A program made the position numbers and the translations under genes. Shown here in pieces: positions 36,214 through 54,879 of a DNA stretch of 64,000 bases. Under the pieces are notes generated by a model that saw only the letters and a list, made by a program, of their open reading frames with translations, made no database searches and was not told where the DNA came from. The DNA is from Rhodobium gokarnense (lineage in GTDB: Bacteria > Pseudomonadota > Alphaproteobacteria > Rhizobiales > Rhodobiaceae), in assembly GCF_025961475.1 (NCBI RefSeq), contig NZ_JAOQNS010000006.1, positions 248,001-312,000 on the forward strand, read 5' to 3'. Within the stretch, counting starts at the first letter, position 1. Each line of letters begins with the position of its first letter.

Positions 36214-36323
36214 TCCTGCAAAACATCGAAAAGCGGGAAAAACGGCGCAAAATGCCGCTCAACGACGTTCCGTCAGACAGAAAATAAACTGAAATCGAAT
36301 TGATTTCGGGAAATATGGGGAAG

Positions 36324-36340
36324 TAACCGATATTCGGTTA
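36324..36340. promoter_or_regulatory. perfect palindrome upstream of malic enzyme, candidate operator
   Basis: TAACCGA-TAT-TCGGTTA is a perfect 7-3-7 inverted repeat ending 13 bases before the maeB ATG. At that position it could bind a dimeric repressor or fold over the ribosome binding site (AGAAAGG, 36341-36347). The region just upstream (36270-36320) is AT-rich and probably holds the promoter. Confidence 0.6.
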
Positions 36341-36353
36341 AGAAAGGTGCGGA

Positions 36354-38672: not shown

Positions 38673-39511
38673 CGGCGCAGCAGGACACCGGGACCATGAT
38701 GCGCGGGACGCCGAAGGTCCGCGGCTATCTGGCGGGCGACGTCGACCGCGCGGTGTTCCTCTATCGCCAGAGCGCCCGGGTCACCTGGCTCGTCGGCCTC
38801 GACTATGGCGGCGCGCGCCCGGCCTGGACCGTCGGCTCGCGCTTCTTCGGCCGGTTCTATCCGAACCGCTGCGACCTCTCGCCGGACGGCCGGCTGTTCC
38901 TCTATTTCGTGCAAGGAAAGAGCCAGAAGAAATACCAGGACAAGCACCAGTTCTGGACGGCCTTCTGCCAGCCGCCCGACGTCAAGGCGCTGCTGCTCCT
39001 TGCCCATTTCGACACCTGGGGCGGCGGCGGGCGGTTCCTGCCCGGCCGCAAGGCGGTCGTTGCGCCGGGCATGCACCCGGACTTCGATCTCGCCGGCAGC
39101 TACCGCGTCGGCGGCTACGACGTCGTCTTCCGCGACCACCCCTATAACGACTGGACCAGCGGCCACGGCTGGACGGTGGACCGCTACAACGACTGGGGCA
39201 TCGGCAAGGCCTGGTCGAAGACGGCGGGCGGTTTTACGGTCAAGCGGATAGTCCGCCACGGGCGCAATATCGGCGAGTTCTCCCTGCACCGCTACGAGGT
39301 CTATGACCGGCGCAAGGGAACGCTCGTCTTCGACGGCGCCGACGAGTTCCACTGGATGGACGTCGACAATCGCGGCCGCCTCATCGGCGCCGCCGGCAGC
39401 CGCGTCGTCATCTTCCCCAACCTGCCGGCGATCCTGCGCCGGCGCGGCATCGAGACCGACCTGGAACAGAAGGTGCGTCGGGCACAACGCCTCAAGCGGG
39501 AGCCTGCCTGA
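38669..39511 (+). CDS. uncharacterised protein coupled to malic enzyme
   Basis: The 280-residue soluble protein is not recognised. It is rich in aromatic residues and glycine, with strand-like repeats such as RPAWTVGSRFFGRFYPNRCD, VVFRDHPYNDWTSGHGWTVD and HRYEVYDRRKGTLVFDGADE; this pattern suggests an all-beta, propeller-like fold (inference). No signal peptide or membrane segment is seen. The start is GTG 38669, overlapping the maeB stop by four bases (GTGA), so the two should be co-translated. Internal ATGs at residues 10-11 are alternatives. Codon use matches the neighbours. Confidence 0.75.
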   Translation: MTAQQDTGTMMRGTPKVRGYLAGDVDRAVFLYRQSARVTWLVGLDYGGARPAWTVGSRFFGRFYPNRCDLSPDGRLFLYFVQGKSQKKYQDKHQFWTAFCQPPDVKALLLLAHFDTWGGGGRFLPGRKAVVAPGMHPDFDLAGSYRVGGYDVVFRDHPYNDWTSGHGWTVDRYNDWGIGKAWSKTAGGFTVKRIVRHGRNIGEFSLHRYEVYDRRKGTLVFDGADEFHWMDVDNRGRLIGAAGSRVVIFPNLPAILRRRGIETDLEQKVRRAQRLKREPA

Positions 39512-39684
39512 GCGGTTTTGACGGCACCGCCGGGAACCGGGCGGCACGGGTTACCGTTCCTGCCCGGACCTTGCTGTCCGCGCCGCCATGGCATCGGCCC
39601 GCCACCCTTTCCAAAGGGCGGCCCGGCGTTCCATGATGGCGGAACAGTCGCGTTTTCAATTTGCCCGCCCGGGAAGTCGTTCCA

Positions 39685-40254
39685 ATGGATCGCATCCTCA
39701 TTGCCTACACCACCGAGGAAGGCCAGACCGCCAAGATTTGCGGCCGCATTGCCGAGCGCCTCGCCGCCCACGCCTTCGATCCGGTCATCCACAACATCAG
39801 GGTCGACAAGAGTGTGCCGAACCGGCTGACGGGCGCCATCGTTGCCGGCTCGGTGCATCTCGGCGCCCATTCCAGAGCGCTTGCCGCCTTCGTCCGAGAC
39901 AACAGGGAAAAGCTCTCGGCGCTGCCGTCGGCGTTCATTTCCGTCAGCCTGCAATCGGCATCGCCGGATGCCGACGAGCGCGACGAGGTGCGCTCGGTTG
40001 CCGAAGACTTCCTGGCCGAAACCGGCTTCAAGCCGCTGTTCCTGCACACCGCGGCAGGGGCCGTCCACGATGCGCGCATCGGACCGTTGCGCCGGGTCGT
40101 GCTGCATTGGATCCTGCGGCGCCGCGGCGTCGACCTCGACCCGTCGGGCGATACGGAATTCACCGACTGGACCGCGCTCGACCGCTTCGTCGACGAATAC
40201 GCCCACGCGTTGCGCGGCGAGGAGGAATTGGGCGCGCCGCGCCTGGAGGCCTGA
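39685..40254 (+). CDS. flavodoxin-domain protein (HemG-like)
   Basis: The 189-residue protein opens with MDRILIAYTTEEGQTAKICG, the phosphate-binding loop of flavodoxins with a TEEGQT substitution as in HemG-type protoporphyrinogen oxidases. Next come GSVHLGAHSRALAAFVRDN for the FMN ring loop and SVSLQSASPD. A basic C-terminal helix (RRVVLHWILRRRGVDLD) resembles the HemG membrane-proximal insert. Protoporphyrinogen oxidation is plausible but not certain. ATG 39685 starts the first beta strand. It converges with the second sulfotransferase, 22 bases apart. Confidence 0.8.
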   Translation: MDRILIAYTTEEGQTAKICGRIAERLAAHAFDPVIHNIRVDKSVPNRLTGAIVAGSVHLGAHSRALAAFVRDNREKLSALPSAFISVSLQSASPDADERDEVRSVAEDFLAETGFKPLFLHTAAGAVHDARIGPLRRVVLHWILRRRGVDLDPSGDTEFTDWTALDRFVDEYAHALRGEEELGAPRLEA

Positions 40255-40276
40255 TCATTCGGGGAGCGGGAAGCGG

Positions 40277-41521
40277 CTACGCGCCGTTGCCGTCGTCCGT
40301 CTGCCGGTCACGCAGGAGCTTCAGGCCGCTGAGGGCGGCCGCCGGCCCGTGGCCGCCGAACACGGACAGGAGCGAGCGCTTCAGCTTCGCGGTCGCCGGT
40401 GATTCCAGTCGTGCATCCGCCCGCTCCTTGCGCGCCACCTCAAGCTCCGGATCGAAGGCGAGCGCCCGGTCGAACGAGGAGATCGCCCGCTCCGGATCGT
40501 TGTCGTAAAGGGCGAGCATGCCGCTCTGGTAAAGGACGATCGCCTTCAGCCGCTCCGCTTCCACGGCCTGGTCGTTGATCAGCCGGGCAAGGTCGCGGAG
40601 CGTCGCCTCGGACCAGTCCGGACCCGCCTCTGCCGGCATCTCCGGCTCCTTCAGGGCGATCCCGAACGCTTCCTCCAGATAGGCGAGGTCCTCCGCGGCA
40701 TCGGCCCGGACGGTGTCGGCGACCTCCTGCGGCAGCGCGAAGGGGGTGCCGGCGATCGCGGCAAGCCCGCGCAGATTCTTGGCCCGGTCGGTATTGCGCC
40801 GCTTGCCCTCAAGCTTCGGCGCGGTGTCGGCAAGGGCATCGAGCAGCAGCGCGGCCTCGGCCGAAACGCTCTCGTTGCGGAAGGTGGCGCTCTCCTCGAT
40901 GAGGCCCGGATCGATGCCGACGACGGCGCAGAAATCGGTCCTGACGTCGCCCTCGTGCAGGGCGTCGTAGTCGAACGGGCGAACGACCACATTGTCCTTG
41001 CCGAAGACCTCGATGAATTTCGGCAGCAGTTTGGAAAACCGGGAAAACCGCGGCTCGGCAAAACACTCCTTGAGCGTCCTGTGCCCGGTCTTGACGTCCT
41101 GCTGCATCGCGCTTGCCGCATGGGAGACCGGATGGCGCACATAGCAGACGACGGTGACCTCGCAGGCCGCCGCTCCGAAATGCCCGGCAAGCTGGCGCAG
41201 CGCCTCGCCATCGAGGGTCGAAAAATATTCCGAGGAGAGGATCAGTTTCTCGAAGCTCTTGTCGCGCAGCGCCTCATCCAGCCGCTTCAGATAGCGCGTG
41301 GTGTCGGCGCGGATCGCCGCCCGGTCGCCATAGCCGCGCTTGATATTGAGGCCGATCGTCTCCGGCGCCTCGTGGAAATGGGAGACCAGCCAGAACTGGC
41401 TCTGCTGCGGGCCCGGATAGCAGATGCCGGCCTCGGCGAGCCTGTCCCGGCTTGCCGCCAGCGATCCCTGGATGAACGAGGTACCGGTCTTGCTGGTGCC
41501 GATATGCAGGAAGAGCTTCAT
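40277..41521 (-). CDS. sulfotransferase-like protein with C-terminal helical repeats
   Basis: The 414-residue protein starts with MKLFLHIGTSKTGTSFIQGS, a P-loop-like 5'-phosphosulfate motif. KLILSSEYFSTLDGEALRQL and VTVVCYVRHPVSHAASAMQ give the 3'-phosphate region. After about residue 300 it adds a helical tail with a TPR-like unit (NDPERAISSFDRALAFDPEL). This combination suggests sulfation of cell-surface glycans or capsule-like polymers, which is inference. ATG 41521 is preferred; a longer open frame extends to 41716 but lacks family-like sequence. No glycan cluster is adjacent. Confidence 0.78.
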   Translation of the reverse strand: MKLFLHIGTSKTGTSFIQGSLAASRDRLAEAGICYPGPQQSQFWLVSHFHEAPETIGLNIKRGYGDRAAIRADTTRYLKRLDEALRDKSFEKLILSSEYFSTLDGEALRQLAGHFGAAACEVTVVCYVRHPVSHAASAMQQDVKTGHRTLKECFAEPRFSRFSKLLPKFIEVFGKDNVVVRPFDYDALHEGDVRTDFCAVVGIDPGLIEESATFRNESVSAEAALLLDALADTAPKLEGKRRNTDRAKNLRGLAAIAGTPFALPQEVADTVRADAAEDLAYLEEAFGIALKEPEMPAEAGPDWSEATLRDLARLINDQAVEAERLKAIVLYQSGMLALYDNDPERAISSFDRALAFDPELEVARKERADARLESPATAKLKRSLLSVFGGHGPAAALSGLKLLRDRQTDDGNGA

Positions 41522-41877
41522 GCCAGCGCGGGTCTTTTTGAAAGGCGTGAACGGGGCCGCGGTTCGGGGGAGGAGCGGCCGGCCATGGACAGTGCCGCCA
41601 CTCTGCGAAGGATTGGCCGCAAAGTCCATGGGGCCGCCTGAGAAAAAGCCCTCTGGTTGGGCGAGCGCCGCCGATGGCAAGGGCGGTTTGCCGCAACCGC
41701 CGCCAGGGCGCCTCAAAGCGCTAGGGCGCGTGCGCGGAACATGTGCGCTTTCAATCTGTTATCCCTTGAGAGAGGGGCCGCACGCCTTGTTTGCCGTGGT
41801 CTCGTCCCCATGTTAGAGCAGATTTTTTGACGGCCGGCCCGACACCAGCTTCGGCCCGACAGGAGTTTAAGAGCGAC
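41522..41877. other. 356-base divergent intergenic region
   Basis: The gap separates the minus-strand sulfotransferase from the plus-strand S49 protease, so it should hold both promoters. I see no convincing -35/-10 pair, repeat or RNA structure. AGGAG at 41861-41865 is the protease ribosome binding site. Confidence 0.5.
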
Positions 41878-42750
41878 ATGTTCGATTGGATCCGCACCCG
41901 CTTGCCGGAAAGATGGCAGAAGGATCACCCCTTTGTGCCCGTGGTGCGCCTGTCCGGCGCGATCGGCATGGTGACGCCGCTGCGCCCCGGCCTGTCGCTC
42001 GCCACCTGCGCGCCGGCGCTGTCGAAGGCGTTTTCCTACAAGCACGCCCCGGCGGTCGCGATCATCGTCAATTCGCCGGGCGGCTCGCCGGTGCAGTCGC
42101 GGCTGATCTACCAGCGCATTCGCGACCTGGCGGAGGAAAAGGAAAAGCAGGTCTTCGTCTTCGTCGAGGACGTTGCGGCCTCCGGCGGCTACATGATCGC
42201 CCTTGCCGGCGACGAGATCGTCGTCGATCCGTCGTCCATCGTCGGCTCCATCGGCGTCGTCGCCGCCACCTTCGGGTTTACCGAGGCGATGAAGAAGCTC
42301 GGCGTGGAACGCCGGGTCTACACCTCCGGCGACAGGAAGGTGATGCTCGATCCCTTCCAGCCCGCGGACGAGGAGGACGTCGCCCACCTGAAGGCCCTGC
42401 AGGCGGAGATCCACGAGACCTTCATCGATATGGTCAAGGAGCGCCGCGGCGACATCCTGCAGGACGACGTCGACCTCTTCAACGGCCGCTACTGGACCGG
42501 TTTGCAGGCGCAAGGCTTCGGCCTTGCCGACAAGATCGGCGACCTGCGCGGCGTGCTGAGGGAGCGCTACGGACCGGAGGTCAAGTTCAAGCTGGTCTCT
42601 TCCGACCGCAGCTTCTTCATGCGGCGCGGCGCCCGGGGTGCTACGATTGCCGCCGGCCCGGACGGCGTCCGGCTCGAGGCCTCCGGCCTTACGGGCGACC
42701 TCGTCTCGACGCTGGAAGAGCGCGCTCTGTGGGCGCGCTACGGGCTCTGA
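41878..42750 (+). CDS. S49-family serine peptidase (SohB/SppA-like)
   Basis: The 290-residue protein has the S49 core: VVRLSGAIGMVTPLRPGLSL, AIIVNSPGGSPVQSRLIYQ, then FVEDVAASGGYMIALAGDEI with the nucleophilic serine in ASGGY and VDPSSIVGSIGVV. The general-base lysine is probably the one in YTSGDRKVMLDPF. The short single-domain form resembles archaeal and rhizobial SppA/SohB that clear signal peptides or degrade membrane proteins. No clear N-terminal membrane anchor is seen; the small membrane protein 26 bases downstream could serve as one. ATG 41878 follows AGGAG at 41861-41865. Confidence 0.9.
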   Translation: MFDWIRTRLPERWQKDHPFVPVVRLSGAIGMVTPLRPGLSLATCAPALSKAFSYKHAPAVAIIVNSPGGSPVQSRLIYQRIRDLAEEKEKQVFVFVEDVAASGGYMIALAGDEIVVDPSSIVGSIGVVAATFGFTEAMKKLGVERRVYTSGDRKVMLDPFQPADEEDVAHLKALQAEIHETFIDMVKERRGDILQDDVDLFNGRYWTGLQAQGFGLADKIGDLRGVLRERYGPEVKFKLVSSDRSFFMRRGARGATIAAGPDGVRLEASGLTGDLVSTLEERALWARYGL

Positions 42751-42776
42751 CGCAAAGGGAGTGGGGCTTACCTGCC

Positions 42777-42962
42777 ATGGCACAGCTTCTTCTTGTCGGT
42801 CTCATCGGCATTGCCGCGATCGTCGGCTGGAACACGGTGAAGAAGGAAATGGCGCGGGTGGAGAAAAAGCTCCACGAAAATGACCCGAAGAAAAAGCGCG
42901 CCCGCGACGACGTCGAGACCCTGGAAGCCGGCGCCGACGGCGTCTACCGGCCGAAGGAATAG
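42777..42962 (+). CDS. 61-residue single-pass membrane protein, partner of the S49 gene
   Basis: The short product MAQLLLVGLIGIAAIVGWNT has one N-terminal membrane helix, followed by a strongly charged cytosolic tail (KKEMARVEKKLHENDPKKKR, then an acidic end). GGGAG at 42757-42761 lies upstream. It starts 26 bases after the protease stop and is very likely in the same transcript. The family is not recognised beyond being a conserved-looking small membrane protein. A role as membrane tether for the protease is speculation from context. Confidence 0.75.
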   Translation: MAQLLLVGLIGIAAIVGWNTVKKEMARVEKKLHENDPKKKRARDDVETLEAGADGVYRPKE

Positions 42963-43050
42963 GCAACACTCCATCCGAACAGGGAAAGCGCCGGAAAAAC
43001 ATCCCGGCGCTCCCGCTTGAGCCGGCGCCGTGAGGCGCCGGGCCTTTCTG

Positions 43051-43341
43051 CTATTGCGCGGTGCTATTGCCCTGCTGCCAACCGCCGCCCCATCCCGGGC
43101 CCTTGTTGGCGAGCGCCCACTTGCAGTCCTGCGACAGGTCCTTGAAGTGGGATTCCAGGCAATTCGGGATCTCGCCCCGGCCATGTTTCAGGTGGCCGCA
43201 ATAGGTGGCGATTTCCTTCTTGCAGTGGGTGCCGACGAGGCCCCCGCCTGCGCCTTGCCCCGCACCCTGGGCGAGCGCGGGACCGGCCGACACGGCAAGG
43301 GCAAGCGTCGAGCCGAGAAGGATCTTCATCAGCGTGTTCAT
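43051..43341 (-). CDS. small secreted cysteine-rich-repeat protein
   Basis: The 96-residue protein has a Sec signal (LMKILLGSTLALAVSAGPAL, cleaved near ALA-QGA). A mature part follows with four cysteines: C-KKEIATY-C at the front, then GEIPNCLESHFKDLSQDC. This spacing resembles the cysteine-rich repeat found in Golgi GLG1 and in short bacterial periplasmic proteins. The ends are glycine-rich. The function is unknown. It converges with the S49 operon and is divergent from glyQ. Confidence 0.78.
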   Translation of the reverse strand: MNTLMKILLGSTLALAVSAGPALAQGAGQGAGGGLVGTHCKKEIATYCGHLKHGRGEIPNCLESHFKDLSQDCKWALANKGPGWGGGWQQGNSTAQ

Positions 43342-43485
43342 GACACAGGCCTTTCATCGTGCGGCGGAAAACTGTTTCGACCGCCGCCCCGCAGCCCGTA
43401 CCTTATATGGGGTCCGTAAAAGCCCGCTTGTATGCGCCGACACGCCGCATTGCCGCACCTTGACGCGGCCGCAAGGCGCGCCCGC

Positions 43486-43514
43486 TTGACCACCAACAGT
43501 CCCGCGACTACGGT
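43486..43514 (+). promoter_or_regulatory. candidate glyQ promoter
   Basis: TTGACC (43486-43491), 17 bases, TACGGT (43509-43514). A start near 43521 would leave about 30 bases before ATG 43552. Confidence 0.45.
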
Positions 43515-43551
43515 CCGCGCGCCGATGAAGCCTGACGCCGGAAACCTTTCC

Positions 43552-44493
43552 ATGACCGACGAGACCGTTGCCGACCACATGCGCCCCGAACGCTCGTTCC
43601 AGGCGCTGATCCTGACGCTCCAGAAATTCTGGGCCGACAAGGGCTGCGCCATCCTGCAGCCCTACGACATGGAGGTCGGCGCCGGCACCTTCCATCCGGC
43701 GACGACCCTGCGCTCGCTCGGCACAAGGCACTGGAAGGCCGCCTATGTGCAGCCCTCGCGCCGCCCGACGGACGGGCGCTACGGCGAGAACCCGAACCGT
43801 TTGCAGCACTACTACCAGTTCCAGGTCATCCTGAAGCCCTCGCCGGACGACCTCCAGGACCTCTATCTCGGCAGCCTGAAGGCGATCGGCATCGACCCGC
43901 TCCTGCACGACATCCGCTTCGTGGAGGACGACTGGGAAAGCCCGACGCTCGGCGCCTGGGGCCTCGGCTGGGAGTGCTGGTGCGACGGCATGGAGGTCTC
44001 CCAGTTCACTTATTTCCAGCAGGTCGCGGGCTTCGAGTGCTCGCCCGTTTCCGGCGAGCTGACCTACGGGCTGGAGCGGCTGGCCATGTATGTGCAGGGC
44101 GTCGACAACGTCTACGACCTCAACTTCAACGGCCGCGAGGGCGCCGAAAAGATCAGCTATGGCGACGTCTTCCTGCAGGCCGAGCAGGAATATTCCAGGC
44201 ACAATTTCGAATACGCCGACACGGACATGCTGTTCCGCCATTTCCGCGACGCCGAGGCCGAGTGCAAGAGCCTCCTGGAAAAGGGCGATGCGGGCGAGGG
44301 CGCCCTCCATCGCTGCGTCCTGCCGGCCTACGACCAGTGCATCAAGGCGAGCCACGCCTTCAACCTTTTGGACGCCCGCGGCGTCATCTCGGTAACGGAG
44401 CGCCAGAGCTACATCCTGCGCGTCCGCGACCTCGCCAAGGCCTGCGGCGCGGCGTTCCTCAGGACCGATGCGGGCGGGGCCGAGGCGGCTTAA
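43552..44493 (+). CDS. glyQ: glycyl-tRNA synthetase alpha chain
   Basis: The alpha subunit of the (alpha-beta)2 bacterial GlyRS is the catalytic class II aminoacylation core. The 313-residue product has [40 protein letters not shown] and [20 protein letters not shown], which carries motif 2 of the enzyme, plus [23 protein letters not shown] 43552 fits the predicted transcript start; ATGs at 43525 and 43579 are alternatives. The beta subunit glyS lies about 8.4 kb downstream rather than adjacent, with accessory genes between. Confidence 0.96.
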
Positions 44494-44692
44494 CGCCCGG
44501 GCATTTCTTCAAAGACCAGACAGTTCCGGACCGGCCGGCCGCGTCGCCGCCGGCATGGGACGATTCGCGCACCGTCGCCTCCGGGGAAATGTATACGCAA
44601 CCATGAATTGCTGTCCCTCATGTGCTAGGACAAGGATGCGGTCCGTCTTCGCTTGACGTGTCGGCCGGGACCGCTTTGGCGCGTTGCAAAAG

Positions 44693-45433
44693 ATGTTCCG
44701 GGACGTCTTTCAGATGGGAAGAAGAGCGAAGGGTCTGAGTCTTTTCATATTTCTATTTGGTGTTTTGATCTTGTCGGCGCGCGGAATCGACAACAGCGGC
44801 AACACGAGAGATATCTTATTTGCAATCGGTTTACCGGGAGTGATCCTTGTTTTACTCATTGATAGAAATTTTCTAGCGATCAAGAGCCGGGCATGGAGCA
44901 AGAAAAATGGTCTTTTGATGGTTCTCATGTTCGGTTTTACAGTTCTCAACATGGTGCTCTGCATCACCGACGACGACAGCGTGCTGGCCTTGATGCTGCA
45001 GTCGCTTGTGCAATCCCATGTCTCGCCCTGGCAGGCGAAGGCGCTCTCGGCCGTTGAGGCGGCCGCCGTGACGTCACTGCTTCTTGGCGCGGCGGGGCCA
45101 TGGATCGTCAGGACAGCCGTCGGCAGCGAGACCGATTTCGGTGCGTTTGATCGCCTCAAGGCGTTCGTCGCCACGCTGCCGAAGCTCGTGGCCGCGGCGC
45201 TCCTGCTGGCCGCAGTCAACCTTCTTGCCGTCTTCTCAACGTCGATCGGGACGGCTGTCGAGGGGATCGCCACCGACTATTGGACCGGCCTTCTGGTGTC
45301 GATGCCGGTCTATATCGCGTTCAGCGTCCTGATGCTTTCCTTCATGCTCTTTCTCGCGGCCGCCCTCGTCGAGGCCTATCTCAGGCTCGATCCGGAGCCG
45401 CTGTTCTTAACGCCGCAAGGCGAGCCGGGCTGA
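44693..45433 (+). CDS. membrane protein of unknown family, paralogue 1 of 3
   Basis: The ~246-residue protein has about six membrane segments, including SLFIFLFGVLILSARG, LLMVLMFGFTVLNMVLCI and KLVAAALLLAAVNLLAVF. It shares an ordered set of features with the next two genes: an AA-G-GPW-V motif (GAAGPWIVRTAV), then a RLKAFVATLPKLVAAALLL block, then an LNLL/VNLL helix, and a last helix ending in VEAYLRL. The first 200 bases are AT-rich against the surroundings. I do not recognise the family. ATG 44693 is chosen; TTG 44684 and ATG 44714 are possible. It is 200 bases after glyQ. Confidence 0.72.
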   Translation: MFRDVFQMGRRAKGLSLFIFLFGVLILSARGIDNSGNTRDILFAIGLPGVILVLLIDRNFLAIKSRAWSKKNGLLMVLMFGFTVLNMVLCITDDDSVLALMLQSLVQSHVSPWQAKALSAVEAAAVTSLLLGAAGPWIVRTAVGSETDFGAFDRLKAFVATLPKLVAAALLLAAVNLLAVFSTSIGTAVEGIATDYWTGLLVSMPVYIAFSVLMLSFMLFLAAALVEAYLRLDPEPLFLTPQGEPG

Positions 45434-45446
45434 AAGCGAGGTGACA

Positions 45447-46172
45447 ATGCTTGAAACCGCCCTTCGGACCATCCGCAACAACCGCCGCTATTTCCTGCTC
45501 GGGTCGTTCGCCTGGATTGTCATCATTGCGTTTCTGGCGGTCCGTTCGGACTTTCGCACCATCCTCACGGTCGTCGTTCTAGCGGTGGGATACGCGCCGG
45601 CGTTTCTAATGACGATTGCCGAACACGTTCGTAAGGCAACGTGGGCGGAAAAGAACGCCCGGTCCTTCGCCGCAATCCTGTTCACCATGCTCGCCGTGGA
45701 GTTCTTCAACTACATCCTCACCGACCTAGCCAGCGACCCGACCGTCGCTCCCTTCGTCCTCCAAGCGGACAGCGACCTTGCACCCTGGCACCTCAACATC
45801 CTCGCGGCCGCGTTTGCCGCCATTTGCACCATGCTGCTCTATGCGGCGCTGGGACCATGGTTCGTCCGGGTGGCCGTCGATGGACTGCGGGGCCTGGGCG
45901 CCATGGAACGCCTGAAGGCGCTGGTCCTGACCATTCCAAGGCTGATCCCGGCCGGGCTCCTGCTGGTTGTTCTCAACCTTGTCGTCATCTACCGCACGGA
46001 CATCGGCGCGGCCCTTGGCGCGGTAACGACGCAATATTGGGCGTTTCTGGCCCTGGCTGCGCTGGTGTCCCTGGTGGTGGTCGTCGTGTGCCTCACCATC
46101 AAGCTCTTCACCGCAATCGCTATCGCCGACGGGTACCGCCAAATCGAGGCCGTGCCGCAGCCGTCCCTGTGA
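45447..46172 (+). CDS. membrane protein of unknown family, paralogue 2 of 3
   Basis: The 241-residue polytopic protein repeats the features of the preceding gene: ALGPWFVRVAVDGLRGLGAM, ERLKALVLTIPRLIPAGLLL, VVLNLVVIYRTDIGAALGAV and a last helix ending in IAIADGYRQIEA. Its N-terminal helices are YFLLGSFAWIVIIAFLAV and TILTVVVLAVGYAPAFL. GAGG at 45438-45441 precedes ATG 45447. It starts 14 bases after paralogue 1, so they form one transcript. No catalytic, transport or binding signature is visible. Confidence 0.72.
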   Translation: MLETALRTIRNNRRYFLLGSFAWIVIIAFLAVRSDFRTILTVVVLAVGYAPAFLMTIAEHVRKATWAEKNARSFAAILFTMLAVEFFNYILTDLASDPTVAPFVLQADSDLAPWHLNILAAAFAAICTMLLYAALGPWFVRVAVDGLRGLGAMERLKALVLTIPRLIPAGLLLVVLNLVVIYRTDIGAALGAVTTQYWAFLALAALVSLVVVVVCLTIKLFTAIAIADGYRQIEAVPQPSL

Positions 46173-46203
46173 ACACGCATTTTAAGAAAAAGCCGGAATT
46201 GTA

Positions 46204-46947
46204 ATGTTCAAGAAATCCATATGGATATTGAAACAAAGATCTATCGCAATAGTAACCGCAATATTGGGTATTTTGGCCTGGTCGTTCATCTGTCGTCAGG
46301 TTAATGCGGTGATTTTGCGTGATTTGGGACGTGAAATAATTGGTATCATTGTTCTTTTTATTGTTGTTCGACATCTTCAGCCTGAGAGGGCCCAAAGCGG
46401 GACGGCCCTGCGGCGCCTGCCGACATTTCTGATCAAGGCCGTCCTGGTGGTCGTCATGACAGGGTTGGCCCAGATGCTCATGGCAGTGACTGTCGCTCGG
46501 GCGAGTCTGGCGGGCCTGCTCGGCGACACGCCGAATGGCCTGGCATTTCTGGCGGTGGTTGGGGCGCTTGCCGCGCTGATCATGGCAGTCGTCTTCGGCG
46601 TATTCGGGCCGTGGCTCGTCGAAGCGGCTCTGGGTCCGAGATCCGGCATCGCTGCCAGCACGCGAGCCGGCTTGGCAACGCTTCGGTACACATTCCCTCG
46701 ACTGCTGATTCCGTGCGCGATGTTCTGGCTTCTCAACATCGTGGCGATGCGCGTTCAGGACGTCATCCAACCTCTGCTGTCGATGCCCAGCGGCTCGGTC
46801 GCACAAAATGGAGCAGCCCTTGCCCTGGGCGCCTTCGTGGTCGTCTTCAGAATCTACGCCTGGGTGCTCCTTGCGGTCGTGGTGAGCGACGCCTACCGGC
46901 GCGGCATGCAGGCCTCGTCGGCTGAAGGGGAACGGGTTACGGCCTGA
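46204..46947 (+). CDS. membrane protein of unknown family, paralogue 3 of 3
   Basis: The 247-residue protein is the most divergent of the three but keeps the order: VFGPWLVEAALGPRSGIAAS, RYTFPRLLIPCAMFWLLNIV and a C-terminal helix ending in VVVSDAYRRGMQA. About six membrane helices are visible. The first 60 codons use many A/T-ending triplets (for example KKSIWILKQRSIAIVTAILG), unlike the GC-rich rest of the window, suggesting recent acquisition of at least this part. It starts 31 bases after paralogue 2 and ends the set; the next gene begins 141 bases later. Confidence 0.7.
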   Translation: MFKKSIWILKQRSIAIVTAILGILAWSFICRQVNAVILRDLGREIIGIIVLFIVVRHLQPERAQSGTALRRLPTFLIKAVLVVVMTGLAQMLMAVTVARASLAGLLGDTPNGLAFLAVVGALAALIMAVVFGVFGPWLVEAALGPRSGIAASTRAGLATLRYTFPRLLIPCAMFWLLNIVAMRVQDVIQPLLSMPSGSVAQNGAALALGAFVVVFRIYAWVLLAVVVSDAYRRGMQASSAEGERVTA

Positions 46948-47088
46948 GCAGGCAGGTGATTGAGGCTCGTCTTTCGGTCGGTTCAAAAACCGCGCCGGAA
47001 ATCTTCCCTTGCCGCCACGGCCGCAAGACTGCTTCGATGCGGCTTTGAAGCCTGAGCCGTCACCCCTGCACCAATTCCGGAGATGCCG

Positions 47089-48399
47089 ATGACCGACCGT
47101 CCCTGCGTGCTCGTCACCGGTGCGGGCGGCTTCATCGGCGCTGCCATCGTTGCAAGGCTGCGCGCGGACGGTTTTGAGGTGCGAGGCGTTGCCCGCGACG
47201 CGGAGGCGGCCGCGCGGCGCATGCCGGGCATCGACTGGGTTTCCGGCGACTTCAATCGCGATGGGGCGCCGGACGCCTGGCGGCCGCGGCTTCAGGGCGT
47301 TGCGGCCGTCGTCAACGCCGCCGGCATCCTGCAGGACGGGGCCGGCGACAGCCTTGAAGCTGTCCATATCCATGGCGCCGATGCGCTCTTTGCCGCTGCC
47401 GAGGCCGCTGGCATCCGCCGCGTCGTGCAGATTTCGGCCATCGGCGCCGAGCCGGAGGCCGCCACCGCCTTCATGCGCACCAAGGCCGAGGGCGACCGGC
47501 GGCTGAAGGCGCGCGACCTCGACTGGATCGTCTTGAGGCCCGGCCTCGTCATCGGCCGGCCGGTCTATGGCGGCACCGGGCTCATTCGCGGCCTTGCCGC
47601 CCTGCCGTTCGCGACGCCGGTGATGGCCGGAGCAAAGCCCATGCAGGTGATCGGCCTCGAAGAAGTGGCGGCCGAGGTCGCCCGGAGCCTCGGGCCCGAC
47701 GCAAAAACCCGCGTCGTCCACGACCTCGTCCATCCCGAGCCGCACGAGCTTGCCGCGATCATCACCCGCCATCGCCAATGGCTCGGCTTCGCCCCCGTGC
47801 CGACGGTCTTTGCGCCGGCCTGGACCGGACGGCTTCTCGGCAGGGTCGGCGATCTCTGCGGCTGGTTCGGCTGGCGCGCGCCGATCCGCTCCACCGCCAT
47901 CAAACAGACGCTGGAAGGCGTCGTCGGCGATCCGGCCCAGTGGATCGCCGACACCGGCGCCGACCCGACGCCGCTTGAGGCGCTGCCCGATCTCGGCCCG
48001 GCAACGGTCCAGGACCGCTGGCACGCACGGCTCTGGGCGCTGCGCCCGCTCGCGCTCGTCGGCCTTGCCCTCTTCTGGCTGGTCTCCGGCCTCGTCGCCC
48101 TCGGCCCGGGCTTTTCCGACGCGGTCTCCAGCCTGATCGTCGCCGGCCTTAGTGCCGAGCCAGCGCGCTGGCTGACGGCCGCGACCGCCGCCCTCGACAT
48201 CGCGGTCGGCGCGGCGCTCCTGTTCCGGCGCTGGCACAGGGCGGCGCTCGTCGCCACGCTCCTCGTCAGCCTTGCCTATCTCGTTGGCGGCACGCTGCTG
48301 GCGCCCATGCTCTGGGTCGATCCGTTGGCACCGCTCCTGAAAATCGTGCCGCAGATGCTGCTCGCCCTGATGCTGCTGGCAACGGCCGAGGCTCGCTGA
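47089..48399 (+). CDS. SDR-family oxidoreductase fused to a DoxX-like membrane domain
   Basis: The 436-residue protein joins two parts. Residues 1-280 are an atypical short-chain dehydrogenase: NAD(P)-binding CVLVTGAGGFIGAAIVARL, VAAVVNAAGILQD, and WIVLRPGLVIGR, as in NDUFA9-like and NmrA-like proteins. From about residue 310 four membrane helices resemble a DoxX-like domain (LRPLALVGLALFWLVSGLVA, AATAALDIAVGAALLFRRWH, LLVSLAYLVGGTLLAPMLWV). ATG 47089 is spaced correctly from CCGGAG (47077-47082). The stop overlaps the ATG of the DUF2269 gene by one base, so they form a coupled pair. Confidence 0.85.
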   Translation: MTDRPCVLVTGAGGFIGAAIVARLRADGFEVRGVARDAEAAARRMPGIDWVSGDFNRDGAPDAWRPRLQGVAAVVNAAGILQDGAGDSLEAVHIHGADALFAAAEAAGIRRVVQISAIGAEPEAATAFMRTKAEGDRRLKARDLDWIVLRPGLVIGRPVYGGTGLIRGLAALPFATPVMAGAKPMQVIGLEEVAAEVARSLGPDAKTRVVHDLVHPEPHELAAIITRHRQWLGFAPVPTVFAPAWTGRLLGRVGDLCGWFGWRAPIRSTAIKQTLEGVVGDPAQWIADTGADPTPLEALPDLGPATVQDRWHARLWALRPLALVGLALFWLVSGLVALGPGFSDAVSSLIVAGLSAEPARWLTAATAALDIAVGAALLFRRWHRAALVATLLVSLAYLVGGTLLAPMLWVDPLAPLLKIVPQMLLALMLLATAEAR

Positions 48400-48872
48400 T
48401 GGAGCTCTTTCAGATACTCCGCGTCCTCCACATCCTCGGCGCCGCCGTGCTCTTCGGCACGGGCATGGGCATCGCCTTTTTCATGGTTCTGGCCCACCGC
48501 ACGGCCGATCCGAAGCTGATCGCCCATGTCGGCTCCGGCGTCGTCCTCGCCGATGCGCTCTTTACCGCGACCGCCGTCATCGCCCAGCCGGTCACAGGCG
48601 TCTGGCTGGCTTACGAGATGGGCCACGACCTGCTGTCGTCCTGGGTCGTCATTGCCGTCGCGCTCTATCTCCTCACCGGCGCCTTCTGGCTGCCCGTCGT
48701 CGTCATCCAGATGAAGATGCGCGATCTGGCAAGGACAGCGGCAGGGCAGGGCGCGCCGCTGCCCGCCGCCTACCACCACCTGTTCCGCATCTGGTTCGCC
48801 TTCGGCTGGCCGGCCTTTGCGGCCGTTCTCGCGATCTTCTGGATCATGGTCGCCCGACCGGATTTCTGGTGA
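48399..48872 (+). CDS. DUF2269 integral membrane protein
   Basis: The 157-residue protein has four membrane helices (ILRVLHILGAAVLFGTGMGI, VVLADALFTATAVIAQPVTG, WVVIAVALYLLTGAFWLPVV, WFAFGWPAFAAVLAIFWIMV) and the conserved early RVLHILGA histidine of DUF2269. Its start codon overlaps the stop of the SDR-DoxX gene (TGATG), indicating translational coupling and a shared membrane complex. The function of the family is not known to me; the histidines in helices 1 and near residue 126 could be cofactor ligands, which is speculation. Confidence 0.85.
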   Translation: MELFQILRVLHILGAAVLFGTGMGIAFFMVLAHRTADPKLIAHVGSGVVLADALFTATAVIAQPVTGVWLAYEMGHDLLSSWVVIAVALYLLTGAFWLPVVVIQMKMRDLARTAAGQGAPLPAAYHHLFRIWFAFGWPAFAAVLAIFWIMVARPDFW

Positions 48873-49091
48873 GCATCCGCCTTGCCCTGCGTCAAAAGAT
48901 GCGCGGCACATGCTCCTTTCACCCTTACATTCAACGCTCCTGATATGTACCGTTGGGTTCCGCCCGCCGGGCCCGCCAACGGGCATTGACGCCCTTCGCT
49001 TCAACGCGCGCGGAGGGCGTGGTGATCGCGGTGCCGCCGCGCGTGCCATCGGGTCCGGTCAATGCCCGTCAGAGACGAAGAGGAGACGCCT

Positions 49092-49331
49092 ATGACAGAC
49101 CCCGTGATCGCCCAGAAGGGTCCTTACGTCGTCACCGTGGAGGAGGGAAAATCCTATTTCTGGTGCGCCTGCGGCCGCTCCAAGGACCAGCCCTTCTGCG
49201 ACGGCTCCCACACGGGCACCGGCTTCCTGCCGGTCCGCTGGAAGGCGGACGCCTCGGGCGAGCAGTATTTCTGCGGCTGCAAGCACACCAGGACGCCGCC
49301 CTTCTGCGACGGCACCCACGAGACGCTCTGA
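49092..49331 (+). CDS. dual CDGSH iron-sulfur protein
   Basis: The 79-residue protein contains two CDGSH-type [2Fe-2S] sites. The first is CACGRSKDQPFCDGSH (C25, C27, C36, H40). The second is CGCKHTRTPPFCDGTH (C61, C63, C72, H76). Both keep the unusual three-Cys, one-His ligand set and the P-X-CDG core. Bacterial tandem CDGSH proteins of this size are thought to act in redox or Fe-S transfer. AGGAGA at 49081-49086 fixes ATG 49092. It is monocistronic, 219 bases after DUF2269. Confidence 0.93.
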   Translation: MTDPVIAQKGPYVVTVEEGKSYFWCACGRSKDQPFCDGSHTGTGFLPVRWKADASGEQYFCGCKHTRTPPFCDGTHETL

Positions 49332-49437
49332 GCCGCCGGGCGGTGCTTCCGAGCCGCCATGTTAATACGCATTATCCGTTGATCTTGACGCCTTGCCTGT
49401 CGATACTGCCGCTGGGCGGGCCGAGAGGGAGAACGGA

Positions 49438-50001
49438 ATGATCACCTGGATAATCCTCGCCGTCGTCGTCCTGGCGGCAATCTACGGCGTCGTCCTCTAC
49501 AACAGGCTGGTGAAATTCCGCCAGATGGTGGCCGAGGGCTGGAGCGGCATCGACGTCCAGCTCAAGCGCCGCGCCAACCTCATCCCCAATCTGATGGAAG
49601 CGGTGAAGGGCTATATGGGCCACGAACGTGAGACGCTCGAAGAGGTCACCGCCCTTCGCGCCCGCGCCGAAAAGGCAAGCGAGGAGGATGCCGATCCGGC
49701 CCGCCGCAGCCTCATCGAAGGTGCGCTTTCCGGCGCGCTCGGCCGGCTCTTTGCCCTTGCGGAGAACTATCCGGACCTGAAGGCGAGCCAGAATTTTATA
49801 GACTTCCAGGACGCGCTGGAAGCGGTGGAAGAGCAGATCCAGCTCTCCCGCCGCTACTACAATGGCGCCGTGCGCAACCTCAACGTCGCCGTGGAATCCT
49901 TCCCCAGCAACCTTGTCGCCTCCACCTTCAAGTTCGAAAAGGCCGACTATTTCGAGCTCGAGGCGACCGAGGACCGCGCCGTCCCGAAGGTCTCCTTCTG
50001 A
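49438..50001 (+). CDS. lemA: LemA-family membrane protein
   Basis: The 187-residue protein starts with an outward-anchored helix (MITWIILAVVVLAAIYGVVL) and then the LemA helical bundle: YNRLVKFRQMVAEGWSGIDV, QLKRRANLIPNLMEAVKGYM, LFALAENYPDLKASQNFIDF and RRYYNGAVRNLNVAVESFPS. LemA proteins are of unclear function, and their genes are often linked to DUF2207 or TPM-domain genes, as here. GAGAGGGAGAA precedes ATG 49438. The two DUF2207 genes follow 54 bases later on the same strand, probably in the same operon. Confidence 0.93.
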   Translation: MITWIILAVVVLAAIYGVVLYNRLVKFRQMVAEGWSGIDVQLKRRANLIPNLMEAVKGYMGHERETLEEVTALRARAEKASEEDADPARRSLIEGALSGALGRLFALAENYPDLKASQNFIDFQDALEAVEEQIQLSRRYYNGAVRNLNVAVESFPSNLVASTFKFEKADYFELEATEDRAVPKVSF

Positions 50002-50055
50002 CGCCTCAAGCACAATCGCCAAGGCATTTTCGCCGCTCACCGAAAGGGGAACGCG

Positions 50056-50823
50056 ATGATCCGGCACCTTCTGGCGCTTTGCGTCATCTCCCTGCTATTC
50101 GCCGCCGGCGCGGCTATGGCCGAGGAAGAAATCCTTTCCTTTGACAGCGATATCGTCCTCTCGGAGGACGGTACCCTCGACGTCACCGACACGATCCGCG
50201 TCCGGTCCGAGGGCTACAAGATGACGAAGGGGGTCTTCTACGAGCCCCCGTACGTATATATGTATCGCGAATTCCAGGTCGAATATAAGGATTCTGACGT
50301 CGCCCGCCCGACGGTCGGCCTGGATATTCTGGAGATACGGAAAGACGGCGACGCCATTACCTATCAAGCCAGGCAGGAAGGCCTGAACATCTTTATCAGT
50401 TCGCGCAATATCTTTCCCGAGCTTGGCGTCCACACTTACGAGTTCCGCTACCGGACCCGCGCGCACATCCTCTGTCGCGCCGATCAAGAGCTCCTTTATT
50501 GGAAAGTGGTCAGCAACAACTGGGACTTTCCAATCCTCAAGATCAGGGCGGGCATCACCCTGCCGGCGGGCGTCGCGGCCCGGCTTCCGGAAACTTTGGC
50601 CGGCTTGGTGGAATCGAAAGGCATCGAGGGCCGCATCGCTCGAGGTGGCCCCAACACCATCGCCTTCAAAACAAGGCGGACGCTGCCCCCCGGCGAGGCC
50701 TTCGCCGTTCGGATTGCTTTCGAAAAGGGCACCTTTGCTGACTGTGCCGACCGGCACGCGATGCGCGGCGGCGAAAGCATCGACGGGAGCAACTCCGTCG
50801 TGGGCAAACAGGGAGAGAAATGA
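50056..50823 (+). CDS. short DUF2207 exported protein (N-terminal domain only)
   Basis: The 255-residue protein has a signal peptide (LLALCVISLLFAAGAAMA) and the soluble DUF2207 domain: ILSFDSDIVLSEDGTLDVTD, LYWKVVSNNWDFPILKIRAG and AFKTRRTLPPGEAFAVRIAF. It then stops without the membrane helices and C-terminal region of normal DUF2207 proteins. It aligns along its length with the first ~240 residues of the next gene, so the pair arose by partial duplication. The reading frame is intact with no internal stop, and codon use is normal. It probably remains periplasmic. The stop overlaps the next ATG (ATGA). Confidence 0.82.
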   Translation: MIRHLLALCVISLLFAAGAAMAEEEILSFDSDIVLSEDGTLDVTDTIRVRSEGYKMTKGVFYEPPYVYMYREFQVEYKDSDVARPTVGLDILEIRKDGDAITYQARQEGLNIFISSRNIFPELGVHTYEFRYRTRAHILCRADQELLYWKVVSNNWDFPILKIRAGITLPAGVAARLPETLAGLVESKGIEGRIARGGPNTIAFKTRRTLPPGEAFAVRIAFEKGTFADCADRHAMRGGESIDGSNSVVGKQGEK

Positions 50824-52733
50824 TGCGGCAGTTCCTGGCACTCGTGATCCTTGCGCTCGCCTTCGCCGCCAGCCCGGCAAAGGCCGAGGAGGAAATCCTC
50901 TCCTACGAGAGTGACATCGTCGTTGCCGAGGACGGCACGCTGGACGTCACCGAGACGATCCGGGTCCGGGCCGAGGGCCGCAAGATCAAGCGGGGCATCT
51001 ACCGGGATTTCCCGGTCCAGTACCGCACCGCCAACGGCCTGCGCCGTGCCGTCGGCTTCGACGTCATCGAGATCAGGCGGGACGGCAAGAAGGAGCCCTG
51101 GCACAGCGCCTGGGTCGACGGCTACGAGCGCATCTATATCGGTGACGAGGACGTCTTCCTAAATTCCGGCGAATACACCTACACCATTCGCTACGAGACG
51201 ACCCACCAGCTCCGCTTCTTTGCCGCTTATGACGAGCTCTACTGGAACGTCACGGGTAATTTCTGGGACTTTCCGATCCGCCGCGCCGTCGCCCGGATCG
51301 CGCTCCCGCAGGCCGCGGAAATCCTGCAAAGGGCGGCCTATACCGGCTACCAGGGCGACAGGGGGAGGGCCTATCGGGTCAGCAATCAGGGCTTCAACAC
51401 CATCACCTTCGAGACCACCCGGCCGCTCGCCCGCAACCAGGGACTGACGGTCGGTGTCGGCTTTTCCAAGGGCGTCGTCGACGAGCCGGGCCCGGTCGGC
51501 CGCTTCCTCAACGCCTTCCTCGACAATTTCGGCCTCTTCCTCCTCGTCGTCGGCACCTTCGGCGTCGGCGCCTACTTCTTCGCCAAATGGCTGGAGGTCG
51601 GCCGCGATCCGGAAGGTGGCGTCATCATCCCGCTCTACGAGCCGCCGAAGGGCCTGTCGCCGGCCGCCCTCAGCTATCTCCACTACCAGACCTTCGCATC
51701 CGGGCGCGGCGGCGCCACCAAGGCCTTCATCGCCGCGCTCCTGTCGCTGGCGGTCAAGGGACGGATCCGGCTCGACGAGGAGGGCAAGAAGAAGGTCGCC
51801 CTGGAGGCGGCGGACCGCAGGACCGACGACCTTCCAGGCGGCGAGAGGGCGCTGATGGACGGGTTCCTCGGTGGCCGCGACCGCTTCGTCGTCGAGCGGG
51901 CCAACGCCACGACGCTCGTGAGGACAAGGGCCGCTTTCCGCAAGGCGATCCTCACGGAGTACGAGGGAAAGTTCTTCAGGAACAACTATTTCGTCTCGAT
52001 TGTCGGCGCCGTCATCTCCGTTGCCATCCTCATCGCCTTCATCTTCTTCCACGCGCCGACGGATACCGAACTCGGCACCATGATCATCGCCGCCTTTTCC
52101 GGCTTCGGCGGCGCCTTTCTGCTCTCCATGGGGCTCTACCGCCTGCTCGGCTGGATCCCGGGAGGAAGTTCGGCGATCGCCGGCACCTTCCTGACGATCC
52201 TCGGCGCCGTCATCTTCGCGCCGTCGCTGGTCATGCCGCTGCTGCTTGCCGGCGCTGCCACGATGATCCCGGCGATGGTCGTCGCCCTTTGCGTCCTCAA
52301 CATCCTCTTCTTCGGCCTGATGCGGGCGCCGACGGTCATCGGCCGGCGTATCATGGACGAGACGGAGGGTTTCAAGATGTTTCTCTCCGTCGCCGAAGCG
52401 GACCGCATGAACATGATCGACGCGCCGGACGTCACCGAGCCGGTGTTCGAGAAATACCTGCCCTACGCGATCGCCCTCGGCGTCGAGAAGCCGTGGTCGA
52501 ACGCGTTTTCCGACTACCTCGCCCGCGCACGGCCGGGCGAGATCGTCTCCTCCTACCATCCGGGCTGGTACCGCGGCGGCTCCTTCGATGTCGGCCATAT
52601 CGGCTCGATGACATCGGGCATCGTCTCCGCCGTCGGCTCCAGCGTCTCCGCGGCAACGCCCAGTTCCTCCGGCTCGTCGGGCGGCGGCTCGTCCGGCGGA
52701 GGCGGCGGTGGTGGCGGCGGCGGCGGCTGGTAG
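50820..52733 (+). CDS. full-length DUF2207 membrane protein
   Basis: The 637-residue protein has a signal peptide (ending near SPAKA-EEE) and a DUF2207 domain (about 24-235: ILSYESDIVVAEDGTLDVTE, LYWNVTGNFWDFPIRRAVAR). A first membrane helix follows (FLLVVGTFGVGAYFFAKWLE), then a cytosolic predicted region around 270-390 and a cluster of helices (about 400-500). The tail is glycine- and serine-rich, ending in eleven consecutive glycines and a tryptophan. Such tails are typical of the family. It is coupled to the short paralogue by an ATGA overlap; a second ATG at 50823 is also possible. LemA and DUF2207 likely function together in envelope maintenance (inference). Confidence 0.88.
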   Translation: MMRQFLALVILALAFAASPAKAEEEILSYESDIVVAEDGTLDVTETIRVRAEGRKIKRGIYRDFPVQYRTANGLRRAVGFDVIEIRRDGKKEPWHSAWVDGYERIYIGDEDVFLNSGEYTYTIRYETTHQLRFFAAYDELYWNVTGNFWDFPIRRAVARIALPQAAEILQRAAYTGYQGDRGRAYRVSNQGFNTITFETTRPLARNQGLTVGVGFSKGVVDEPGPVGRFLNAFLDNFGLFLLVVGTFGVGAYFFAKWLEVGRDPEGGVIIPLYEPPKGLSPAALSYLHYQTFASGRGGATKAFIAALLSLAVKGRIRLDEEGKKKVALEAADRRTDDLPGGERALMDGFLGGRDRFVVERANATTLVRTRAAFRKAILTEYEGKFFRNNYFVSIVGAVISVAILIAFIFFHAPTDTELGTMIIAAFSGFGGAFLLSMGLYRLLGWIPGGSSAIAGTFLTILGAVIFAPSLVMPLLLAGAATMIPAMVVALCVLNILFFGLMRAPTVIGRRIMDETEGFKMFLSVAEADRMNMIDAPDVTEPVFEKYLPYAIALGVEKPWSNAFSDYLARARPGEIVSSYHPGWYRGGSFDVGHIGSMTSGIVSAVGSSVSAATPSSSGSSGGGSSGGGGGGGGGGGW

Positions 52734-52848
52734 GGCCCGGCGCAAAGCACCGCACTGCAGCGGGGGGTGACTTTTTCCCCCGCCCTTGGTAACGGACGGC
52801 GCCGGACGGCAGTTGCCCGCCGGCGTCCTCCGACCGAGCGAGACCGAT

Positions 52849-54879
52849 ATGCCTGACCTCTTTCTGGAACTCTTCAGCGAAGAAATCCCCGCGCGCATGC
52901 AGCGCCGGGCCGGCGAGGATCTGAAGAAGCTGGTGACCGACGGTCTGGTGGACGCGGGCCTGCCGTATGAGGGCGCCAAGGCCTTCGCCACCCCGCGCCG
53001 GCTGGCGCTGCACGTTGCCGGCGTGCCGGTGCGCTCGCCGGACGTCAAGGAAGAGCGCAAGGGCCCGCGCGTCGGCGCCCCGGAAAAGGCGCTGGCAGGG
53101 TTCCTGCGCGCCGCCGGTCTCGACAGCGTCGACCAGGCGGAGATCGTCTCCGACCCCAAGAAGGGCGATTTTTACGTCGCCCGCATCGAAAAGCCGGGCC
53201 GCGAGGCAACCGAGATCGTCGCCGAACTGGTCGCCGACACCATCCGCAAATTCCCCTGGCCGAAATCCATGCGCTGGGGCGAGGGGAGCCTTCGCTGGGT
53301 GCGCCCGCTGCACTCGATCCTGTGCACCTTCGGCGCGGAGACCGAGGACCCGGACGTCATCGCCGTCGAGGTCGACGGCATCCCGTCGGGCGACGTCACC
53401 TATGGCCATCGCTTCCTGGCGCCCGGTCCGATCCGCGTGAAGCGCCTCGACGACTATATGACGTCGCTGGAAAAGGCGAAGGTCGTGCTCGATGCCGACC
53501 GCCGCAAGGACATCATCCGCACCGACGCCGACAACGCCGCCCACGCCATCGGCCTTGAGGTCGTCACCGACGAAAAGCTCCTGGACGAGGCGTCGGGCCT
53601 CGTCGAATGGCCCGTCGTGCTGGTCGGCAGTTTCGACGAGCGGTTCCTAGATATGCCCGACGAGGTCATCCGCACCTCGATCCGCGAGCACCAGAAGTGC
53701 TTCGTGCTCTCCGATCCGAAGACCGGAAAACTCGCCAACCGCTTCGTGCTGGTCTCCAACCTGGAGGCCAGCGACGGCGGTCTTGCGATCACGGCCGGCA
53801 ACGAGAAGGTCATTCGCGCGCGGCTGTCGGATGCCGACTTCTTCTGGCAGTCCGACCTGAAGACGCCGCTCGCCGACAACGTCGCAAAGCTCGACGACAT
53901 CGTCTTCCACGAAAAGCTCGGCAGCCAGGGCGAGCGCGTCAAGCGGCTGGAAACGCTGGCCGCTGCCATCGCCGAAAAGATCGGAGCCGACCCGGCAAAG
54001 GCGGCGCGCGCGGCCAAGCTCGCCAAGGCCGACCTCGTCTCGCACATGGTCTTCGAGTTCCCCGAGCTGCAGGGCCTGATGGGCAAGTACTACGCGGAAG
54101 CGCAGGGCGAGGATGCCGCCGTCGCCACTGCCATCGAGGATCACTACAAGCCGCAGGGGCCGTCGGATGACGTGCCGTCCGAGCCGGTCGCGATTGCCGT
54201 CGCCCTTGCCGACAAGCTCGACATGCTGACCGGGTTTTGGGCCATCGACGAAAAGCCCACCGGCTCCAAGGATCCGTTTGCGCTGAGGCGCGCGGCCCTC
54301 GGCGTTATTCGGATCATCCTGGAGAACGAGCTTCGCTTCCCGCTCGCCGCCGACCCGGACCTCCTCAACTTCTTCGCCGACCGTCTGAAGGTGCAGTTGC
54401 GGGAGGAGGGCGCCCGGCATGACCTCGTCGATGCGGTCTTCGCCCTCGACGACCAGGACGACCTCCTGATGGTCGTGCGCCGCATCGAGGCGCTGGGCAC
54501 ATTCCTCGACAGCGACGACGGCGCCAACCTCCTCGCCGGCTACAAGCGCGCGGTCAACATCCTGCGCGCGGAAGAAAAGAAGTCCGGCGAAACCTATTCC
54601 GGCCGCCCCGACCCGAACCTCCTGACCGAGCAGGCCGAAAAGGATCTTGCCGGCGCCATCGACATCGCCCGCACCGATGCGGCCAAAGCCATCGACGCCG
54701 AGGACTTCGCCGCCGCCATGGCCGCCTTGGCCACCCTGCGCGCGCCCGTCGACACCTTCTTCGACGACATCCTCGTAAACGCCGACGACCCGGCGCTACG
54801 GGAGAACCGCCTAAAGCTCCTCAACGAAATCCGCGAGGCGACGCTGGCGGTAGCGGATTTTTCGCGGATCGGATCCTGA
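52849..54879 (+). CDS. glyS: glycyl-tRNA synthetase beta chain
   Basis: The beta subunit contributes tRNA binding and the anticodon-binding domain to bacterial GlyRS. The 676-residue product shows [60 protein letters not shown] and [20 protein letters not shown], with the HD-like and C-terminal helical domains ([15 protein letters not shown]). ATG 52849 begins the conserved N-terminus. It is 115 bases after DUF2207. The catalytic partner glyQ lies 8.4 kb upstream, so balanced expression of the two subunits would need a long transcript or two promoters. Confidence 0.96.

Follow-up and report, generated by a model that had tools for sequence, protein, structure and literature searches.

The trio and its chromosomal slot

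Three neighbouring genes on one strand, here called A, B and C, encode six-helix membrane proteins within the window, by which we mean the whole stretch of 64,000 nucleotides analysed from the 5.1-Mb genome of Rhodobium gokarnense (G000), for which two congeners were compared. The ORF coordinates confirm that the three frames lie where the preliminary description placed them, and the features on which the following analysis draws are these:

43432..44493, + strand: glyQ, left border of the slot (PF02091, E 5e-143); the actual start probably lies further into the frame
44493..46977, no strand: accessory segment of about 2.5 kb that occupies the glyQ-SDR slot, with G+C below that of the flanks
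44693-45433, + strand: protein A, ATG start, about 246 aa (249 from a possible longer start, TTG 44684), member of the six-TM family
45447-46172, + strand: protein B, ATG start, about 241 aa (243 from a possible longer start, GTG 45441)
46204-46947, + strand: protein C, 247 aa, the member nearest the wider family
47083..48399, + strand: gene of SDR/DoxX-like type (PF13460 and PF13781) that bounds the slot on the right, 91% identical in congener G002

The gaps had been given as 14 and 31 bases; the second is indeed 31 nt (B to C), but the first, from the stop of A to the ATG of B, measures 13 nt. This spacing is compatible with an operon and thus with the single transcript proposed at the outset, but no sigma-70-like sites were found. 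The G+C by codon position is coding-like, and all three frames are open over their full length, show codon-position bias and have kept their hydrophobic segments. An ordered set of shared motifs is present as described, reading (in A/B/C order) GPWIV, GPWFV and GPWLV at the first position, TLPKL, TIPRL and TFPRL at the second and AVNL, VLNL and LLNI at the third, while the last helices end in AYL (A), GYR (B) and AYR (C), a small correction, in the case of B, to the AYR/AYL ending given at first. Judged from the sequences, relatedness is strong between A and B (34% identity over 181 residues, blastp E 1e-24), clear between B and C (31% over 119 residues, E 2e-6) and weak between A and C (E 2e-4), the global scores lying 14.5, 6.0 and 3.0 SD, respectively, above 300 block shuffles per pair that kept local hydropathy. 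A is the member most divergent from the rest of the family.

The segment that harbours the trio differs in composition from its surroundings, with G+C in 500-base windows of 0.52-0.64 compared to 0.63-0.74 around it. The trio genes have a G+C of 0.57-0.62 (third positions 0.67-0.80), versus 0.66 for glyQ (0.91) and 0.72 for the SDR gene (0.86). The flanks (35772-44492 and 46978-54659) are about 90% identical to those of congener G002, in which the trio is replaced by a gene on the opposite strand encoding a 409-residue HNH_5 protein (L034 8830-10056, - strand; PF14279, E 8e-9), and the trio island was not found in either of the two congeners searched. Because G002 carries an unrelated HNH gene between such similar flanks, the position between glyQ and the SDR gene is, on this comparison, a variable slot that takes unrelated cargo, and the trio probably represents acquired DNA.

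Several accessory genes set glyQ apart from glyS (recognised by eye) in the window (44493-52785); in some relatives, for example L049 and L055, glyS directly follows glyQ. Two of the ORFs in this interval, at 50056-50823 (255 aa) and 50820-52733 (637 aa, presumably DUF2207-like), have a common N-terminal region, the former looking like a short partial duplicate of its larger neighbour, and congener G001 seems to carry just one of this pair.

Relatives in other Alphaproteobacteria

Simple searches recovered little: B alone had no match in 100 relatives, a three-row profile of the trio had no significant match in 120 relatives (in one of which, G069, later and better profiles detected a single distant member), and a first scan of genome contigs for the trio found none. 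Class-wide (385 genomes, E <= 0.01), the three-row profile gave two matches beyond G000. One of them, in G385 (E 0.003), is a tandem pair, and the other was read as chance, as were the low-scoring matches to this profile other than L065 (L004-L020, L023 and L066, not all inspected singly). With the G385 pair added, the profile matched 11 of 150 genomes (G385 and relatives), all of them in the genus of G385, Thalassospira (29 genomes of the genus shown), the named loci stemming from T. lucentensis (two), T. povalilytica and T. profundimaris.

To relate the trio to these proteins, we used profiles that lack window sequences, in tests that are strong but not wholly independent, as the members were recruited by trio-containing profiles. 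A profile of 29 Thalassospira-type members picked out C alone of the 1185 ORFs at E <= 1 (E 2e-13, 46.3 bits; best of 900 block shuffles and three reversed trio copies, 6.4 bits), a 33-member profile without A, B and C detected both C (E 2e-18 among the 1185 ORFs) and B (E 0.0015, 14.0 bits; best B shuffle 6.9), and a profile of eight members from outside Thalassospira and the window detected C (E 3e-10 at 36.1 bits, with 13.9 bits as the highest score of 1500 shuffles) but not A or B. When the trio was compared with the 29-member alignment, profile against profile, P was 1.7e-7 over 115 columns. No profile without A and B detected A, and a profile of A and B only fails to single out C (13.8 bits versus 16.3 for a chance ORF in L008). 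A is therefore linked to the family through B, and B mainly through C.

The family, with relatives in Alphaproteobacteria that occur as single genes or in tandem sets of two to four, is rare within the sampled genomes. A 32-row profile matched 6 of 385 genomes class-wide (including the trio's own, one match that was set aside and one unstudied), and a 30-row profile matched 7 of 398 phylum-wide (including the trio's own, three of Thalassospira and G712, with a YciC-like protein). Single-gene members reside in G459, G787 and G069, and single or paired genes in the four g332 genomes (G452, G647, G648 and G649). The matches in G225 and G154, located in frames of 835 and 549 residues, were set aside, and G243 (a contig of 3089 bases) was left out of the family reading. 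The complete trio, whose recurrence in other genomes had been proposed as a check, was found only in G000 across the wider searches; what does recur is the tandem arrangement, with at least two adjacent same-strand members at 7 of the 11 Thalassospira-type loci and four in the largest set.

At the Thalassospira loci, in which gene names were read from the ORFs (with CydA, the YeiH-type protein, PF03601, and the MFS protein each checked in one locus), two slots recur, several of the stretches being too short to display both. Slot 1 is bordered by cysD and an aminotransferase gene, with an additional MFS gene in some strains; where cysD is visible (9 of 11 stretches), a member adjoins it in eight cases and the MFS gene intervenes in one. 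Slot 2 has cydAB on one side and, on the other, a LysR gene that is followed by a YeiH-type gene. A member is also found no more than about 3 kb from cysDN, which we take to be sulfate-activation genes, in all four g332 genomes, directly adjacent in three of them, and G649 has one member on either side of cysDN.

The tree resolves several Thalassospira subfamilies that are assorted differently among strains and places the window trio on its own branch. In this branch A and B form a firm pair (100/99), which is in keeping with the local triplication suggested by the preliminary description, but A, B and C group at only 81/83, with long branches meeting, and C may for this reason have a separate history.

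Divergence, predicted structure and nearest known families

To gauge how quickly the family changes, we compared members with their neighbours from the same loci. Identity at the first position of slot 1 is 52-82%, versus 96-99% for CysD (the same five genomes, 10 pairs), and CydB is 87-93% identical in four of these five (6 pairs). Members in slot 2 are 27-38% identical versus 76-89% for CydA (one member per locus at the five loci L093, L097, L098, L100 and L101, 10 pairs; the slot-2 genes of a sixth, L094, were left out). The aminotransferase (77-95%), YeiH (65-87%) and LysR (65-93%) neighbours all change faster than CysD. Finite dN/dS values are 0.08-0.47 for the family, 0.01-0.04 for CysD and 0.07-0.16 for CydA and CydB, and reach up to 0.20 for the aminotransferase, YeiH and LysR genes, overlapping the lower family values. 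The family is thus under purifying selection while changing quickly, and positive selection was not seen, as dN/dS is below 1 throughout the finite pairs. Since dS is saturated in 8 of 26 family pairs (for which no ratio is given) and dS in slot 1 is likewise higher than in CysD, some of the slot "orthologs" may be old paralogs. The slot-2 members look, from their sequences, as if they had been exchanged in cassette-like fashion rather than just diverged, and constraint on the family may be relaxed.

AlphaFold2 models of B (pLDDT 85.4, pTM 0.80) and C (pLDDT 86.5, pTM 0.84) contain long helices that would fit six membrane passes. The most conserved polar or glycine columns (C numbering throughout) are 75 (F), 78 (R/K), 155-156 (R-G), 162 (Y) and 166 (R), alongside 135-140 (G-T-W-L-P-A in most members), 228-231 (S-R-A-Y) and 234-235 (G-E); C itself has A in place of R at position 155. 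They form a core in which F..R occupies the inner end of TM3, GTWLPA or GPW closes TM4, A..RG...Y...R opens TM5 and SRAY..GE closes TM6, and the conserved polar columns group on one side of the models. The membrane orientation assumed here follows the positive-inside rule, and if the N-terminus is cytoplasmic, the conserved columns would be located on or close to the predicted cytoplasmic side. Conservation is low in the predicted outer loops 103-109 and 194-198 (0.22) and likewise in the inner loop 58-67 (0.25).

Neither the structures nor the sequences led to a known family. Foldseek searches of the PDB with the B and C models returned nothing at E 0.001. Among the VIA structural rows, yeast PNS1 (9f63), which resembles choline transporters, ranks third for B (Z 6.9, rmsd 6.7, 191 aligned; two glypican-3 rows stand above it) and tops the rows for C (Z 7.8, rmsd 4.7, 167 aligned). 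Human CTL1 follows at Z 5.5 (B) and 6.1 (C), all scores below a meaningful level, as Z under 8 may denote a common helical-bundle arrangement. In Foldseek, PNS1 appears at E 0.92 for C and is absent among the 50 matches listed for B. The modelled likeness to CTL/SLC44 is therefore a lead only, and no glypican, rhodopsin, GPCR or carrier relation was read from the structural rows. The best matches of 32 members, each to a single member, were at E 0.0074 in Pfam and E 0.0024 in NCBIfam; PADLOC models matched none of the 32 at E <= 1, the best PHROGs match of 30 members was at E 0.018, PDB sequences gave no match at E 1, and searches of viral, phage and plasmid sequences revealed no relative. Nothing that could be tied to the family was found in the opening lines of abstracts in the literature. 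Overall, the Pfam, NCBIfam, PADLOC and PHROGs matches were rejected as scattered, single-member or chance-level, among them B as Na+-NQR subunit C (the NCBIfam match at E 0.0024; 17 bits versus a cut-off of 336) and one g332 member as MscS_TM (Pfam E 0.0034; 16.7 bits versus a cut-off of 28). The initial reading of an unrecognised family is borne out by these scans, which name none and support the view that the trio family is uncatalogued, with an entry in neither Pfam nor NCBIfam.

The closest relatives by profile are the tandem proteins of Thalassospira, which share with the trio the family, the same-strand tandem arrangement, a size of about 230-320 aa and the lack of a Pfam or NCBIfam entry, but occupy other slots and mostly carry GTWLPA and SRAY..GE in place of the window's GPW.V and.DAYR. 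Among catalogued families, YciC/UPF0259 (PF06790) and GPDPase_memb (PF10110) appear nearest by weak profile similarity, and we do not claim membership in either. YciC/UPF0259 proteins resemble the family in size and helix content, but the profile similarity is confined to about 31-35 N-terminal columns (P 0.0079 across 35 columns, and P 0.00037 across 31 with a wider set), there is no Pfam match, and inspection by eye of the genes around the trio and the alphaproteobacterial members showed neither yciA nor yciB. For GPDPase_memb, the similarity extends over 182 columns in C-terminal register for the 30-row alignment (P 0.029), but lies below significance, ranging from P 0.0052 to 0.32 with the query alignment, and the trio family lacks the GDPD catalytic domain; G000 has no PF10110 match. 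Neither PF06790 nor PF10110 is among the 14 Pfam families listed by the 32 members at E <= 1, and nor is EI24 (PF07264), presumably CysZ, a sulfate-transport candidate considered for the proximity to cysDN and rejected. The protein matched weakly in G712 (L150 6185-6988), YciC-like and without a PF06790 match, has Yip1 as its best Pfam match (E 0.003) and hints at a broader assemblage of six-TM families that are hard to tell apart.

Possible roles of the family

We consider it highly probable that the trio is an acquired tandem set, in the variable slot after glyQ, of an uncatalogued alphaproteobacterial family of six-helix inner-membrane proteins of about 250 residues. Nothing recognisable as an enzyme, ATPase or soluble domain is present in the proteins, no enzyme signature was found in the family, and no fixed partner gene is common to all loci. 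As a tentative explanation, less likely right than wrong, we propose an accessory, interchangeable module for membrane protection, akin to immunity or tolerance, in which the conserved core would serve to bind lipid or a shared membrane partner, the variable parts would be fitted to an external challenge that changes, several tandem members would be kept such that several challenges are covered, and the tandem members would perhaps assemble with one another. We favour this proposal because of the tandem sets, the variable slots and the fast change around a constant core. It recalls tandem immunity-gene arrays, in which divergent paralogs likewise stand at fixed positions in tandem sets of varying content, but for the trio family both a toxin partner and a protective effect would be hypothetical; orphan immunity arrays need no cognate toxin gene alongside. 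Counting against protection are the dN/dS values below 1, the lack of PADLOC matches, the equally variable inner loop and the fact that reading the neighbourhoods, mostly by eye, revealed no gene for a toxin, for secretion or for another conflict function beside any of the loci, while the proximity to cysDN in all four g332 genomes hints at a stable housekeeping link. Less probable still is a polymorphic membrane system of self-protection or recognition in Alphaproteobacteria, in which interchangeable tandem sets of very divergent six-TM proteins, exchanged between lineages at fixed chromosomal slots, would combine an unchanging cytoplasmic side with a variable outer side suited to changing toxins, phages or kin.

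About as likely as a protective role is one in lipid or envelope homeostasis, equally tentative, with the family as a distant branch of the small six-TM type represented by YciC/UPF0259 and the GPDPase_memb membrane domain; paralogs would then drift under low constraint, and the tandem copies would be ordinary duplicates. The absence of a catalytic domain agrees with such a role, as does the G712 protein, which adjoins what we take to be yciB and yciA, but its match is at E 4e-4 and comes from one genome among the 398 searched. GPDPase_memb also ranks, weakly, at the top of six non-YciC comparisons for the 30-row (P 0.029), 29-row (P 0.078) and 36-row (P 0.0052) alignments, but not for the trio alone (P 0.32), the YciC comparison spans only its short N-terminal stretch (P 0.0004-0.008), and at E 1 or better PF06790 and PF10110 are missing from the Pfam matches of all 32 members.

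The remaining readings are less likely than either protection or homeostasis. The original idea that A, B and C assemble as obligate subunits into a single hetero-oligomeric complex in the membrane strikes us as unlikely: the close same-strand spacing and the maintenance of three open frames despite strong divergence speak for it, but G452, G647, G648, G459, G787 and G069 each have one detected member, and obligate 1:1:1 assembly would not predict that set size (one to four) and membership vary, so that the idea is weakened rather than refuted. Slightly less probable again is transport or sensing of sulfur compounds tied to the adjacent cysDN, for which the g332 genomes, the slot-1 member in all nine Thalassospira-type stretches with a visible cysD (of 11) and the YeiH-type gene adjoining slot 2 provide arguments; no cys genes were recognised beside the window trio or the G787, G069 and G459 members, however, no transporter family was matched, and the common synteny may merely be inherited position. 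Least probable in our view is decaying acquired DNA without a selected function in the host, as might be read from a low-G+C island found in neither congener searched, since the full-length frames, codon-position bias and intact hydrophobic segments, together with purifying selection on the relatives, argue against decay.

Whatever its role, the trio adds a family missing from Pfam and NCBIfam and links it to variable slots that adjoin genes of core metabolism. Should the sets be protective, they would constitute a simple and testable repertoire of membrane-only immunity; if they are not, they would provide a clear case of a rapidly diversifying membrane family whose role can be tested at one small locus.
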